Of a stretch of 64,000 nucleotides of DNA, positions 51,425-56,772 are shown one piece after another. Both the position numbers and the translations under genes were made by a program. The stretch spans positions 4,464,001 to 4,528,000 of the forward strand of contig NZ_CP116942.1 of the NCBI RefSeq assembly GCF_028532485.1. Direction: 5' to 3'. The DNA comes from Iamia majanohamensis. Its GTDB lineage: Bacteria > Actinomycetota > Acidimicrobiia > Acidimicrobiales > Iamiaceae. The notes beneath the pieces were generated by a model that was not told the origin of the DNA, did not search any database, and saw only the letters and a list, made by a program, of their open reading frames with translations. Position 1 is the first letter of the stretch; every line of letters starts with the position of its first letter.

Positions 51425-51571
51425 GGCGACAGAGTGGCGACCGCTGCGCGCCCGCACCAGTCGGTGCCGTCCGAGCGGAGAGCCTGCGACAAGGTTGGAA
51501 CACCGAGAGCTGGAAGCGGGTGGAGCGGCTGCTAGAAAAGCGCTGGAGTGAGCCCCCAACTGTCTCAATGG

Positions 51572-51858
51572 CTACAGCTCGCAGGCCACCTTGAGGTGCT
51601 TGTCGCCAGGCTTGTACCTGGGAGGGTGATCAATGAAGGTCTCGTCAAGCACGACCAGGTCGTGGATCTTCGCTGCCAGGAAAAGGTCCCAAAATAGCGG
51701 CGTTCAAGTGCTGCTTGACCCGTCGACTGATACGCACGCAGAACATCGTTGCCAGTGCTGACATGGGTTCCGTACGCAGCCGGTTGCACCACTCGTGGAT
51801 GACCGTCATAGGTGAAGCTCAGGGGTCGACGGGCGGTATTTGCGTCGCAGATGGACAT
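51572..51858 (-). pseudogene. Broken WYL-like small protein
   Basis: From ATG 51858 the frame reads MSICDANTARRPLSFTYDGH, then PRVVQPAAYGTHVSTGNDVLRAYQ. This is the start of a ~100-residue WYL-like family whose members continue to a conserved LVVLDETFID-type end. That end is present in another frame: FLAAKIHDLVVLDETFIDHP, then YKPGDKHLKVACEL, stopping at TAG 51572. Between them a frameshift and an in-frame TGA (SSST-stop-TP) are needed, so this is a true pseudogene, not a single error. Confidence 0.7.
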
Positions 51859-51963
51859 CGGAGGTTCCTCCCCGTTGTTGACTGCGGTCATTCTGCCTAG
51901 AGCCGAGGTGTACCGCTCCGGCGGTCCAAGGCGGTACTGACACCATGGCGAATGGCGTATCCA

Positions 51964-52392
51964 CTAGGCACCCTCGCCCTTGATTCGGCGCCCCTTCTCA
52001 TCCCGCTCAGCCCTCGTTGCATCCTGCACCAGACCGAAGGCTCCGAGCGCAAGGCAGAACACTCCGGAGATCCACCAGGTCCACTCCCACCCTCGAGCGT
52101 TCCAGCCCACGTAGACCAAGAGCCCTCCGCCGATCAGGAACATGGCTGCCAGCGTCATGCCCGACGGGTTCCGGCGTTTGGTCGTCTCGTCGAGGGTCAG
52201 CTGGATCACCGACCGTTCGATGTGGTCGAGCAAGACCTTCCGCGCCGAACTGGACTCTGGGAGACGGTCGAAGAGGTCGAGGTCACGCAGGATCACCTCC
52301 CGCCGACGACCACCAACGGCACGGCCAGGCAACAGCCTGCCGAACACAGCGGCAGCAGCCGTGGCGATTCCCGCGAGGGGGGCGAGATCCAA
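51964..52392 (-). CDS. Hypothetical membrane protein
   Basis: About 142 residues from TTG 52392. N-terminal LAPLAGIATAAAAVFGRLLP is weakly hydrophobic. A charged region (GRRREVILRDLDLFDRLPES, ARKVLLDHIERSVIQLTLDE) is followed by two clear helices, GMTLAAMFLIGGGLLVYVGW and WISGVFCLALGAFGLVQDA, and an Arg/Lys-rich tail. Codon bias is coherent. No family recognised; possibly DUF-type membrane protein of the island. Start uncertain because no Shine-Dalgarno is obvious. Confidence 0.6.
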   Translation of the reverse strand: MDLAPLAGIATAAAAVFGRLLPGRAVGGRRREVILRDLDLFDRLPESSSARKVLLDHIERSVIQLTLDETTKRRNPSGMTLAAMFLIGGGLLVYVGWNARGWEWTWWISGVFCLALGAFGLVQDATRAERDEKGRRIKGEGA

Positions 52393-52962: not shown

Positions 52963-53157
52963 TTACGACGCTCTGGTGAGGCGGAGCTCGTCCGCAGGGA
53001 CGAGGTTGTCGAGGAACTCCTCGAGTGCCTTTACCGCCAGGTAGTTGGCGGAGAGGTCCCGGTCGGCTGCCGCCTCGTGCAGCCGGGCATGGAGATCCTT
53101 GGGCACACGGAACGCCGTTGTGATCCGCTGTTCGTGATGAACCTTGGGTCGGGCCAT
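52963..53157 (-). CDS. Ribbon-helix-helix DNA-binding protein (CopG/Arc-like)
   Basis: 64 residues: basic MARPKVHHEQRIT, beta strand TTAFRVPKDLHARLHEAA and helix DRDLSANYLAVKALEEFLDN fit the RHH fold, with a short C-terminal extension ending LTRAS. ATG 53157 begins the canonical strand. Such proteins are often antitoxins or copy-number repressors; no toxin partner gene is adjacent. The GCGC-rich inverted-repeat region upstream (53208-53285) could be its operator. Confidence 0.7.
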   Translation of the reverse strand: MARPKVHHEQRITTAFRVPKDLHARLHEAAADRDLSANYLAVKALEEFLDNLVPADELRLTRAS

Positions 53158-53702
53158 GCGGCAGACAGTACCGAGCACAAACGCGTCGATGGTGGATGGT
53201 GCGCTGGGATTGCCGCGCGCGTCTACGCGCGAATCGCGCGCAATGGCCATGGCCAGGCACTTTGCACGCGCGCGCCCTGTCCAGAAGCTGGGACTCGATA
53301 CCGTTCGGTACGGCGAACCTGTCCATCGCCAGGAGGTGACGCCATGGCGGATTTGCCAGGGCCGAGGGCCGCCTACATGGTTGGGGATGGTGCCATGGCC
53401 TGTCCCCGGGTAGGGTCGGGGTCGGTTTCTGCTCGCGGACCGCGCGCTGATGTGCGTGAGCGTGAGCGCTCAAGGAACACCTGCGTCGGCATGGGGCCGA
53501 CCTCCAGGAGAGAAGGCACCTCAATGACTTTCGGTACGTCACGCGCCAGGATGTGGTGTTCTGGTACTGAACGGAGCCTTGGCTCTGCCGACGGGTGCCG
53601 AGTGGCGCAACCTGGCTCAGCTCCGTCCTTCGACGGCGGACCCGAGAACGCTAGCGGACGATCTTCAGCAGTTCTGCAGCGGATGGGTGGAGTGAGTTTC
53701 AG
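53158..53702. other. 545-bp gap with GCGC palindrome cluster and a possible decayed tRNA
   Basis: No convincing gene. 53208-53285 is rich in GCGCGC: TTGCcGCGCGCG and CGCGCGCAA arms (about 53210-53242) and a further CACGCGCGCGCC near 53275. Around 53590-53650 the sequence GAGTGGCGCAACCTGGCTCAGC recalls a tRNA D-arm, but the anticodon and T-arm do not form, so only a decayed tRNA fragment is conceivable. Confidence 0.4.
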
Positions 53703-53957
53703 GTGAGTGAACGAATCGCACTGGACTATACAAATGGGGCTGCCGAACCCATCCCTTGCGACACTTGGACCAACATTAACCCCACAACCCTTGTCGAGTT
53801 GGCGCGCAAGCATATTAGTGATCCAGCTAAGATTACGTCCGAAACAACTCTCAGGGGCCTTGCGAGTCTCGTCGAGATAGAACTATCCGATGAACTCCGA
53901 GCCCAGATCCAAGAAGCAACAGGCCAACGCAACCTAGCAGTAGACACAGAGCCATGA
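53703..53957 (+). CDS. Hypothetical small protein (overlaps the membrane-protein gene antisense)
   Basis: 84 residues from GTG 53703 in lower-GC sequence: a polar N-terminus, ALDYTNGAAEPIPCDTWTNI, then helices NPTTLVELARKHISDPAKIT and LRGLASLVEIELSDELRAQI. The composition looks coding, but the last 107 bases run antisense to the C-terminal end of the 53851 membrane gene and the RBS (GGTGGAG) is 12-13 bases away. No family recognised. One of the two overlapping ends may be mis-called. Confidence 0.35.
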   Translation: MSERIALDYTNGAAEPIPCDTWTNINPTTLVELARKHISDPAKITSETTLRGLASLVEIELSDELRAQIQEATGQRNLAVDTEP

Positions 53958-55683
53958 GGGGAAGCGTCAGAATTCCGTAGACCTGACTCGCCCAATGGGA
54001 CAACCCATACCACGCGTAGCCCACCACGGACCAAGGGCTGCGGAGTTGGCCCGAAGTTGGATTAAATAGAGCGATTGACCAAATCCAAGTCGCCCATAGA
54101 ATTCCGCACAGTGTGAACAACGCACGCCGGCGTTCCTCGTACCGAGTCAGGTCGGCCGATTTCCAAAGCGTGCTCTGTTGGTCCATTCGACCCTCGACCA
54201 ATCCCCGGTGGGGCAACAGATGGATAGCGGTCAATAGGGCGGCGGCGAGAAAGCTCACTACACTTGCCGTCCAGGCCACCGCTCGGTAACTCGCTGTTTC
54301 CGATTCTTGAAAGAGGGCCAGCGAGAGGCCCGTGGCCAGCGCTGATAGCGCCCCCAAGGACCCAAGCAACCTAATTCCCCGGCTCAGGTACGAGCCCATC
54401 TCTGAATTGGCCACGCCGACGAGGGCTAGAACGGCGCTAGGCAGTCCGGCCGCCAACGCTGCCACAGCTATCGTAATCTGCTGTTGAGTTGGATCGTCTA
54501 CTGGAGCATAGTTGCGGTAGAGGTAGCCGCATAGGAGGGCACACATCCATGCAATCAACGCTGCCGCCCGCGTCACCTTTCCTCTACTTAGCCGAAGTTC
54601 GGCAATGCAATCCCAGTTTCGCCGGCGGTCTTCCCGCTTCAACCAAGCCGAACTCAACACCGGTGCCGCTGTAGCTACGGGTGGCGAAGACCGGTCTACC
54701 GGGACATGTTCAAGTTGTCTCCAATAGAGCCGATCACACCTAACGTCGGGTGGGAGGTCCAGCAGCAAGTAGTAAGATTTGCAATGGTCAATATTGTGCT
54801 TTCGAAAGTGGATTGGCGTTCCGACCATGGTCAGCGTTGCCAGTAGCTTGACCGTGACGTCGACCGTCCAGAGCGCCAAGGGTCCCAATAAGAAGTCGCT
54901 CAGTGGGGGTCGCACGGTTGCGTACCACCGTTCGTTGCGTCTTTCAAAATAGGCGATCAATCGTGACACCTCCTCGTGGGACGGGTAGCCAATGGGACGC
55001 TCGATAACTCGGAAGCCAGAGTTTGACGAATCGGTGTACTCGATGTCGAGGTCGATCAAGTGACCAGCCTCGTCGATCGGCAACTCGGCCAACACATGGA
55101 CCGTTCTACACATTGGGCGCAGCTGAATCCACGGTTGCAGAGACCTTAAAAGGCTATAGACGGACCTTCGCGAGTTTCGAGCCATGTCCCAAGGAACTGT
55201 TCTCTGCTTGCTGAAATACGTGACAGCTTGCTTCAGCTCAGCTAGAATCGCGTCACCCTCGCTGGGCTGAGAGCGTAGAATCGCAACCGCGTACTTGAAG
55301 ATGACTTCTCTCGCCTCGTCAAGCGCATCAGCGAAAACGGAGGCCCTTGCGAGTTTGAGAACCCGAGGCGAGTTGAACAGATGATCCGTATAGCAGAGTC
55401 CCAGAATCATCGAGGTGTCACTGGAGTTTAGAAGGGAGACCGGCTTCCCTTGTGAGGTAACAACCAGATCAGGGTGTCGCTCCTTCAAGAATAGTCCGAT
55501 CGAGACGCACAAGGGCTTATGCTTGCCAGCCTCATTCGGGGGCTCGATCAGTAGCGTTGCGCGCTCATGCCAGGACTCTCTATATGGGGCCGAGAGACTG
55601 ACCTTCTCGACTCTCCGATAGAAGTGATCTGGGGCGTACTGCAACAACTGACTTAGGACTCCAATCTCCACGTCATGGTGCAT
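53851..55683 (-). CDS. Large unrecognised membrane protein of the island
   Basis: About 610 residues from ATG 55683 (ATG 55701 is also possible; a longer frame to 55878 only reads the antisense of the recombinase remnant). Residues 1-380 are mainly soluble, with LLNSSDTSMILGLCYTDHLF, DALDEAREVIFKYAVAILRS and a weak hydrophobic hairpin near 260-280. Residues ~385-600 hold about six helices: AALIAWMCALLCGYLYRNYA, LAAGLPSAVLALVGVA, LLGSLGALSALATGLSLALF, WTASVVSFLAAALLTAIHLL, LFTLCGILWATWIWSIALF and ILTLPLMALCLLLGCVGLLL. GC is clearly lower than neighbours, suggesting acquisition. Function unknown. Confidence 0.6.
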   Translation of the reverse strand: MHHDVEIGVLSQLLQYAPDHFYRRVEKVSLSAPYRESWHERATLLIEPPNEAGKHKPLCVSIGLFLKERHPDLVVTSQGKPVSLLNSSDTSMILGLCYTDHLFNSPRVLKLARASVFADALDEAREVIFKYAVAILRSQPSEGDAILAELKQAVTYFSKQRTVPWDMARNSRRSVYSLLRSLQPWIQLRPMCRTVHVLAELPIDEAGHLIDLDIEYTDSSNSGFRVIERPIGYPSHEEVSRLIAYFERRNERWYATVRPPLSDFLLGPLALWTVDVTVKLLATLTMVGTPIHFRKHNIDHCKSYYLLLDLPPDVRCDRLYWRQLEHVPVDRSSPPVATAAPVLSSAWLKREDRRRNWDCIAELRLSRGKVTRAAALIAWMCALLCGYLYRNYAPVDDPTQQQITIAVAALAAGLPSAVLALVGVANSEMGSYLSRGIRLLGSLGALSALATGLSLALFQESETASYRAVAWTASVVSFLAAALLTAIHLLPHRGLVEGRMDQQSTLWKSADLTRYEERRRALFTLCGILWATWIWSIALFNPTSGQLRSPWSVVGYAWYGLSHWASQVYGILTLPLMALCLLLGCVGLLLLGSGLGVHRIVLSRRDSQGP

Positions 55684-55689
55684 CACGCC

Positions 55690-56640
55690 GATTGGTCGCA
55701 TTTGGTGGACTATAGACGGCACGAGCCGCTGGTGGACGAGGGGCTGTTCCAGCAGGTGCAGAACCAGTTGGCTGGGCGCAAGGTTGCGGGCGATCGGGCC
55801 TGCAAGCGACAGCAGTACCTGAAAGGGAGCGTCTTCTGCCACCGCTGCGGGGAGCGGTTGGGGTTTGGAACACAACACCGACGAGGCCGGTGTTGCCTAT
55901 CCATAGTTCTTCTGTCTCGGACGGCACCGCAAGCGGACCGACCGCGACCTGCCGTACCTGCCGGCAGCCAAGGTGGAGCAGGCCGTGGTGGATGAGTGGC
56001 ATACCGTCACCCTGAGCAAAGCCGTCATCTCGGACGTCCGCTCGAACGTGGAAGAGGAGTTCGACAAGATGCTTCGCCGAGACCGCTTGGTCGTGAGCGA
56101 GCAGGAGATCGGGGTGGCCGGGCTGGAGGCCAAGCGGACCCAGCGGCTCGATGGGATCATCGACAAGGAGGACTTCGTTGAGCGGCAAGGGCAGATGGAC
56201 CGAGAACTGCGGCAGGCCCGCACGGTTATCGCTGGTGCCTCACGGATCCACGAGACGCTGCGAGACCGTGTCGAGGTGAACCTGCGATTGCTCCGCCGAG
56301 CTGGAGGATTCTACGAGCTCCTGCCCGACGTCGGACGACCGACCCTCAACCAGGTGCGCTACCACGCGCTGTACCTGGACATCGACGAGGACGAGGACGG
56401 GGACGTGTTCGTGGCGGCGCCAGAGCTGACGGGAGTGGCTGATGCTGTCGAGGCGGTCACCGAGGACGTACAGCGAGCCACGGGTGGCGCGAAACATGAC
56501 GAGCTGAGCGGGAACGGGACGCACGATCCACAGCGAACGCGGGAGGCCCACCGCCGCAGGTCAGGACTTCGAGCCGGGAGCAGGCATGCCCAAGACGTGG
56601 CGCCGCGTCGCCGTCGCCAGCGGTGGGCTGGAACGAAGAA
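55690..56640 (+). pseudogene. Large serine recombinase, C-terminal remnant with frameshift and nonsense codon
   Basis: The frame at 55718 encodes RHEPLVDEGLFQQVQNQLAG and the zinc-ribbon half YLKGSVFCHRCGERLGFG. Near 55870 a frameshift occurs; the continuation NTDEAGVAYP-stop-FFCLGRHRKRTDRDLPYLPA has TAG at 55915-55917 and Arg in place of the last zinc Cys. The coiled-coil region VISDVRSNVEEEFDKMLRRD, EIGVAGLEAKRTQRL follows to about 56290. The N-terminal catalytic domain is gone. It runs towards tRNA-Ser(TGA). This is a dead integrase of a mobile element, probably the source of the island. Confidence 0.75.
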
Positions 56641-56684
56641 AATCGCCCGCCCCAGGGGCGACCGCTGTTCCAACTTGACCAACC

Positions 56685-56772
56685 TGGCGGAGCGGGGGGG
56701 ATTCGAACCCCCGGGCCCGTGAGGGCCGGTCGCTTTCAAGGCGACTGCAATCGTCCACTCTGCCACCGCTCC
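56685..56772 (-). tRNA. tRNA-Ser (anticodon TGA)
   Basis: Minus-strand class II tRNA: acceptor GGAGCGG/CCGCTCC, anticodon loop CTTGAAA (TGA), long variable arm and T-loop TTCGAAT. The 3' CCA is encoded (56687-56685), unlike the two other tRNAs of the window. It forms the right edge of the island holding the recombinase remnant. Confidence 0.95.

Follow-up and report, generated by a model that had tools for sequence, protein, structure and literature searches.

The window analysed here, a stretch of 64,000 nucleotides from Iamia majanohamensis (contig NZ_CP116942.1, positions 4,464,001 to 4,528,000), forms part of a 4.58 Mb genome assembled as one contig. It contains an island in which the gene for a membrane protein lies among small open reading frames (ORFs) and the remains of a serine recombinase:

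52963..53250, minus strand: small flanking HicB/RHH-like ORF (PF05534, 24.4 bits against a cutoff of 21)
53703..53957, plus strand: 84-codon antisense ORF of chance-level length and overlapping the 3' end of the membrane-protein gene by 107 bp
53854..55683, minus strand: membrane-protein gene of 610 codons with an ATG start and its stop codon at 53851-53853 (ORF list, topology and family match)
53854..54220, minus strand, borders approximate: the part of that gene that encodes the two additional helices of a C-terminal extension (about residues 488-610), which is absent from the relatives L036, L037, L038 and L046 (topology)
55717..55870, plus strand, right border approximate: first piece of the serine-recombinase remnant, comprising the end of the recombinase domain and a zinc ribbon, with the N-terminal part missing (NCBIfam and relative loci)
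55973..56500, plus strand, right border approximate: second piece of the remnant, in another frame (aligning to one of eight relative loci, E 7e-6)

The 610-codon frame is uninterrupted on the minus strand from its ATG at 55683, and is a genuine gene. Hydropathy divides the product into a soluble part ending at about residue 345 and six C-terminal hydrophobic helices at residues 370-388, 403-421, 439-457, 469-487, 522-540 and 571-589; an additional segment at 269-287 (1.59), within the soluble part, also passes the threshold. This agrees with the first-pass annotation as regards a protein of some 610 residues ending in six helices. The soluble part, put there at about 380 residues of unknown fold, does belong to no curated family, and the structure check that had been proposed yielded two models of the window protein too poor to use (mean pLDDT 36.6 and 33.7). 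Lysine and arginine are more frequent ahead of helix 1, in the loop joining helices 4 and 5, and at the C-terminal end than in the remaining loops. This arrangement of charges beside the helices would place the soluble part and the C-terminus in the cytosol, and thus suggests that both ends of the protein are cytosolic. The N-terminus looks complete despite the adjoining break in the recombinase, because the alignment to the family described below starts at residue 4.

The gene had been picked out for its distinctly lower GC content, and this is confirmed: at 56.3%, against 74.5% for the window, it has a composition as low as that of 3 out of 622 windows of equal length (mean 74.4%). GC by codon position is 60/46/63%, compared with 80/52/99% in a nearby glutamine-synthetase gene, and the membrane-protein gene is therefore unadapted to the composition of the genome. 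Promoter- and terminator-like sites occur in close to chance numbers.

A dead serine recombinase on one side of this gene and an RHH gene on the other were both recognised on first reading, and both identifications hold. The ATG of the membrane-protein gene is separated by 34 bp from the earliest recombinase residues that align clearly (RHEPLV, at 55717). The first recombinase piece has matches in 15 of 61 genomes, its own included, and its zinc-ribbon region aligns to seven of the eight relative loci with E values of 3e-9 or better; six of these alignments start at residues 10-16, and that to L029 starts at residue 1, with a gap. Because the piece begins at model positions 254 and 266 of sub-cutoff NCBIfam matches, about 250 N-terminal residues are missing. 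Compared with serine recombinases, the remnant has the zinc ribbon but lacks the N-terminal part and has undergone a change of frame, and it is separate from the membrane protein. No DNA match to the recombinase piece was found in phages, nor any to the island in plasmids. No convincing direct or attachment repeat stood out around the island, and so its ends are not established.

Several further features were observed in and around the island. To the left of the membrane-protein gene, the order is the 84-codon ORF, a two-frame ORF judged by eye to be decayed, and the HicB/RHH-like ORF. The decayed ORF consists of two overlapping out-of-frame pieces at 53469-53692 on the plus strand, with no Pfam match. 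Further left, on the minus strand, are a 142-aa protein with hydrophobic stretches (51964-52392), which has sub-cutoff Pfam matches only, and a 108-aa ORF (51565-51891), for which Pfam gives nothing at E up to 0.001. By eye, the first half of the latter resembles a small protein of the WYL type or a related one; the second half seems out of frame. At the right edge of the island a predicted tRNA-Pro(ggg) overlaps a tRNA-Ser(tga) by 5 nt (56613-56772, minus strand); one of the two may be spurious or a remnant of integration.

The 84-codon antisense ORF had also been singled out as a possible companion of the membrane-protein gene. Its 107 bp overlap with the 3' end of the gene is real, but its length is no more than expected by chance: among 2000 random 1-kb sequences with a similar dinucleotide composition, 94% contain an ORF of at least 84 aa on one or other strand (mean 2.3), and 920 of 1000 codon shuffles attain the 89 codons of the longest open stretch antisense to the membrane-protein gene. 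Relatives of the ORF were found neither in viral contigs or plasmids nor in the relative loci examined. It is probably not a gene, and given its chance-level length and the failure to find a relative, it is not counted as a partner gene. Hence no conserved small partner indicative of a toxin-antitoxin pairing was found.

Consistent with the earlier statement that no known effector domain is visible, neither the membrane protein nor any of the family members tested has a match above cutoff in Pfam, NCBIfam, PHROGs or PADLOC. A comparison of the window protein with the PDB gave nothing significant (best E 0.61), and profile matches to Mis18 (E 0.015) and AMPK gamma (E 0.1) in the same database were taken as chance. 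One homologue of the window protein is encoded in another Acidimicrobiia genome, with a BLASTP score of 49.7 bits (E 1e-10) and identity at 63 of 267 columns (24%). This protein was found twice, in the metagenome-assembled contig JAGNEX010000052.1, as L024:9605-10912 and as L005:595-1902. Such residue-level conservation at 24% identity, together with 610 stop-free codons, makes it highly improbable that the gene is a functionless open frame, arisen by chance or in decay. That explanation draws on the broken state of everything around the gene, and on the lack of any promoter-like site on its strand in a sigma-70 consensus scan, although scans of this kind say little in this organism.

More distant relatives were reached with a 58-residue probe modelled on a type of actinobacterial protein. 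It matched three of 216 genomes of the phylum with E values of 4e-9 or better. The three proteins, L036, L037 and L038, are about 420-460 residues long, carry their conserved stretches in the same order and end in four helices. A profile built from them gives the L005 protein 35.9 bits and the window protein 12.4 bits; for comparison, 7.5 is the highest score among 2000 block shuffles, and 5.1 the highest among 337 six-frame open stretches of at least 200 residues. When L005 and a further member, L046, are added and the window protein is left out, the resulting five-relative profile matches residues 4-487 of the window protein with 49.2 bits; none of 2000 shuffles exceeds 9.3 bits, and none of the 337 open stretches 9.0. 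A profile-profile comparison, extending over 341 columns, has an E value of 3.8e-6 and a probability of 87%, and the three-protein profile matches the L024 protein alone with an E value of 4.6e-8 (probability 95%). Compared on its own with the three-protein profile in hhalign, the window protein gives a weak match (E 0.053, probability 1%), implying that the family link passes mainly through one relative. The window protein combines a significant match to a family profile built without it with the characteristic order of a soluble N-terminal part and a four-helix core (helices 1-4, residues 370-487). Its membership of a sparse, uncurated family of Actinomycetota membrane proteins is well supported by these sequence comparisons.

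The window protein is nonetheless a divergent member of this family, with 16-20% identity to L036, L037, L038 and L046 in a joint alignment. In common with them it has paired arginines near the N-terminus, a strand-like stretch before a D/E-G-P region, an SY stretch before the helices and the C-terminal core of four helices. It differs in its long inserts in the soluble part, in its two additional C-terminal helices, in the low GC content of its gene and in the position of that gene next to a dead recombinase. It also lacks the RPGEH stretch found between helices 2 and 3 of L036-L038, which is replaced rather than conserved; because just three to four sequences define this stretch, it is treated as a feature of the L036-L038 branch. 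The Acidimicrobiia protein differs from the window protein in having a longer N-terminus, and since the end of its contig cuts through it, the membrane parts of the two are not comparable. Across all six proteins the identical positions are only R23, R24, S303, P311, P328 and L433, most of them in the soluble part.

The distribution of the family was studied through searches at several taxonomic levels. On its own, the window protein recovered no relatives from genome_contigs, viral contigs, plasmids and phages; within the genus it was present in one of four genomes, its own. At E up to 1, matches were present in three of 24 genomes of the family Iamiaceae, among them the unread candidates L003 and L004 (E about 0.05). 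In a sample of the class, 28 of 395 genomes matched at E up to 0.1, in 30 places. Of these, the protein itself and L005 are true, L006, L007 and L011 were rejected on reading by eye, and L008-L010 and 22 places without a locus number (E 0.017 to 0.095) were not read. By this single-protein search, then, a family member is present in two of the 395 genomes. A search of the same number of class genomes with the L005 protein produced ten matches, of which those in the window's genome and in that of L005 are true; L015, L017, L018 and L020-L023 were rejected on reading, and L019 was not read. The L005 protein was alone in the genus (one of one) and the order (one of 58) of its own genome, as was L038 in its order (one of three).

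Searches with profiles enlarged the family only slightly. In 396 genomes of the phylum, profile A1 matched the window protein and L013, and the latter was rejected on reading. Profile A2 matched 83 pattern stretches in genome_contigs, a single one of which, L024, is a relative. Profile A5 had nine matches in the 396 phylum genomes, and five were kept after four from genus g292 were dropped. Three of the four, L047, L048 and L050, were read and taken for APC-type amino acid permeases; the fourth, L049, itself unread, was dropped because it agrees with them in genus, match position and open-frame length. As the window protein, L036, L037 and L038 were in the profile by construction, L046 is the only new member. 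Viral contigs contained no relative of the window protein, of profile A2 or of profile A4; plasmids contained no match to the window protein, L005, L036, L037 or L038, and phages none to the window protein or L036. The family looks sparse on this evidence, with searches that were shallow for one so divergent. Literature searches showed nothing on it, which is weak evidence, since the family has no name to search by.

The first-pass annotation had hinted at a role in defence or conflict, and this hint is not sustained by the distribution of matches or by the neighbourhoods of the relatives. Such a gene would be carried as island cargo, and its product would sense infection through the soluble part and damage the membrane with its helices. 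A soluble part joined to membrane helices is a layout seen in defence membrane effectors, and the low GC content and the location beside a dead recombinase would also fit. Against this, five family members are without a match in PHROGs or PADLOC at E up to 0.1, the window protein has no PADLOC match even at E up to 1, the members tried have no match in plasmids or phages, and the antisense ORF does not exceed chance length. Only three contexts are readable, two of them from congeners, and the neighbours in them are metabolic and regulatory genes, which is close to the housekeeping picture that the annotation had itself set against its hint. L036 and L046, which are 82% identical and come from two genomes of a single genus, share their setting: a PALP enzyme on one side and a PLP decarboxylase on the other, the decarboxylase being partial and below cutoff in the contig of L046. 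L037 has a metallo-beta-lactamase/rhodanese gene on one side and, on the other, genes of the MerR and UbiE types. L038, on a 4.4-kb contig, and L024, whose contig ends inside the homologue, had one neighbour each tested, with no Pfam match; the L024 contig otherwise carries ordinary chromosomal-looking genes. The genes of the relatives are 0 to 6.6 points lower in GC than their own contig stretches (6.6 in the case of L037), as against 18 points for the window gene. A defence role is hence possible but unsupported, and as an explanation of the locus we regard it as highly unlikely.

Three of nine neighbours of family members do match PADLOC models, namely SspA/DndA, mad1 and mad2. Pfam, however, assigns the SspA/DndA match to the PLP decarboxylases, the mad1 match to the MerR regulators and the mad2 match to the UbiE methyltransferases. 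The mad1 and mad2 matches, at L041:9907-11375 beside a family member, therefore indicate that these PADLOC models match generic superfamilies.

Another explanation is that the protein is a transporter or channel, in which a solute would be moved by the helix bundle, here of six helices, under the control of the soluble part. The six helices with a regulatory-looking soluble part, and a membrane core common to the relatives, are compatible with this. However, no transporter family in Pfam or NCBIfam is matched, the relatives have only four helices and the conserved residues are mostly in the soluble part, so that such an activity seems unlikely.

The explanation to which we give somewhat better than even chances is that the gene encodes a divergent but intact family member, horizontally acquired as cargo and lying by a dead recombinase. 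As its most likely way of working, though one that taken alone is less likely than not, the product would be a cytosolic sensor or adaptor built on the four-helix core plus two helices. Points that weigh against the explanation are the dependence of the family link on mainly one relative, the missing RPGEH stretch, the lack of a convincing repeat or island end, and the GC deficit of L037, one of the relatives. The gene would have arrived with or beside the recombinase element and outlived the recombinase. In the cytosol, the soluble part may bind a ligand or a partner protein, and could be coupled to the helix bundle or held by it at the membrane. Operation as a sensor or adaptor rather than as an enzyme is a tentative suggestion, preferred because the six invariant residues form no evident catalytic set. 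A bolder version, in which the soluble part is a new fold acting as a ligand- or stress-responsive switch on the helix bundle, and this branch of the family gained its two-helix extension and became mobile cargo, possibly protective against mobile elements, is distinctly improbable.

Overall, the gene is genuine and its setting is of an ordinary kind; its product is a divergent representative of an uncurated family of membrane proteins. It had been put forward as the best candidate in the window for something undescribed; this remains true in the weak sense that the sparse family to which it belongs has no curated model, but the protein has relatives and is no orphan. What had looked like an orphan with a suggested part in defence can be struck from the list of candidates. 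In its place is a sparse Actinomycetota family of soluble-plus-membrane proteins, absent as a model from the copies of Pfam, NCBIfam, PHROGs and PADLOC that were searched. A model constructed from the six proteins would let annotation pipelines detect the family and its neighbourhoods be counted properly and, should the soluble part prove to be a new fold, the family would merit a structure.
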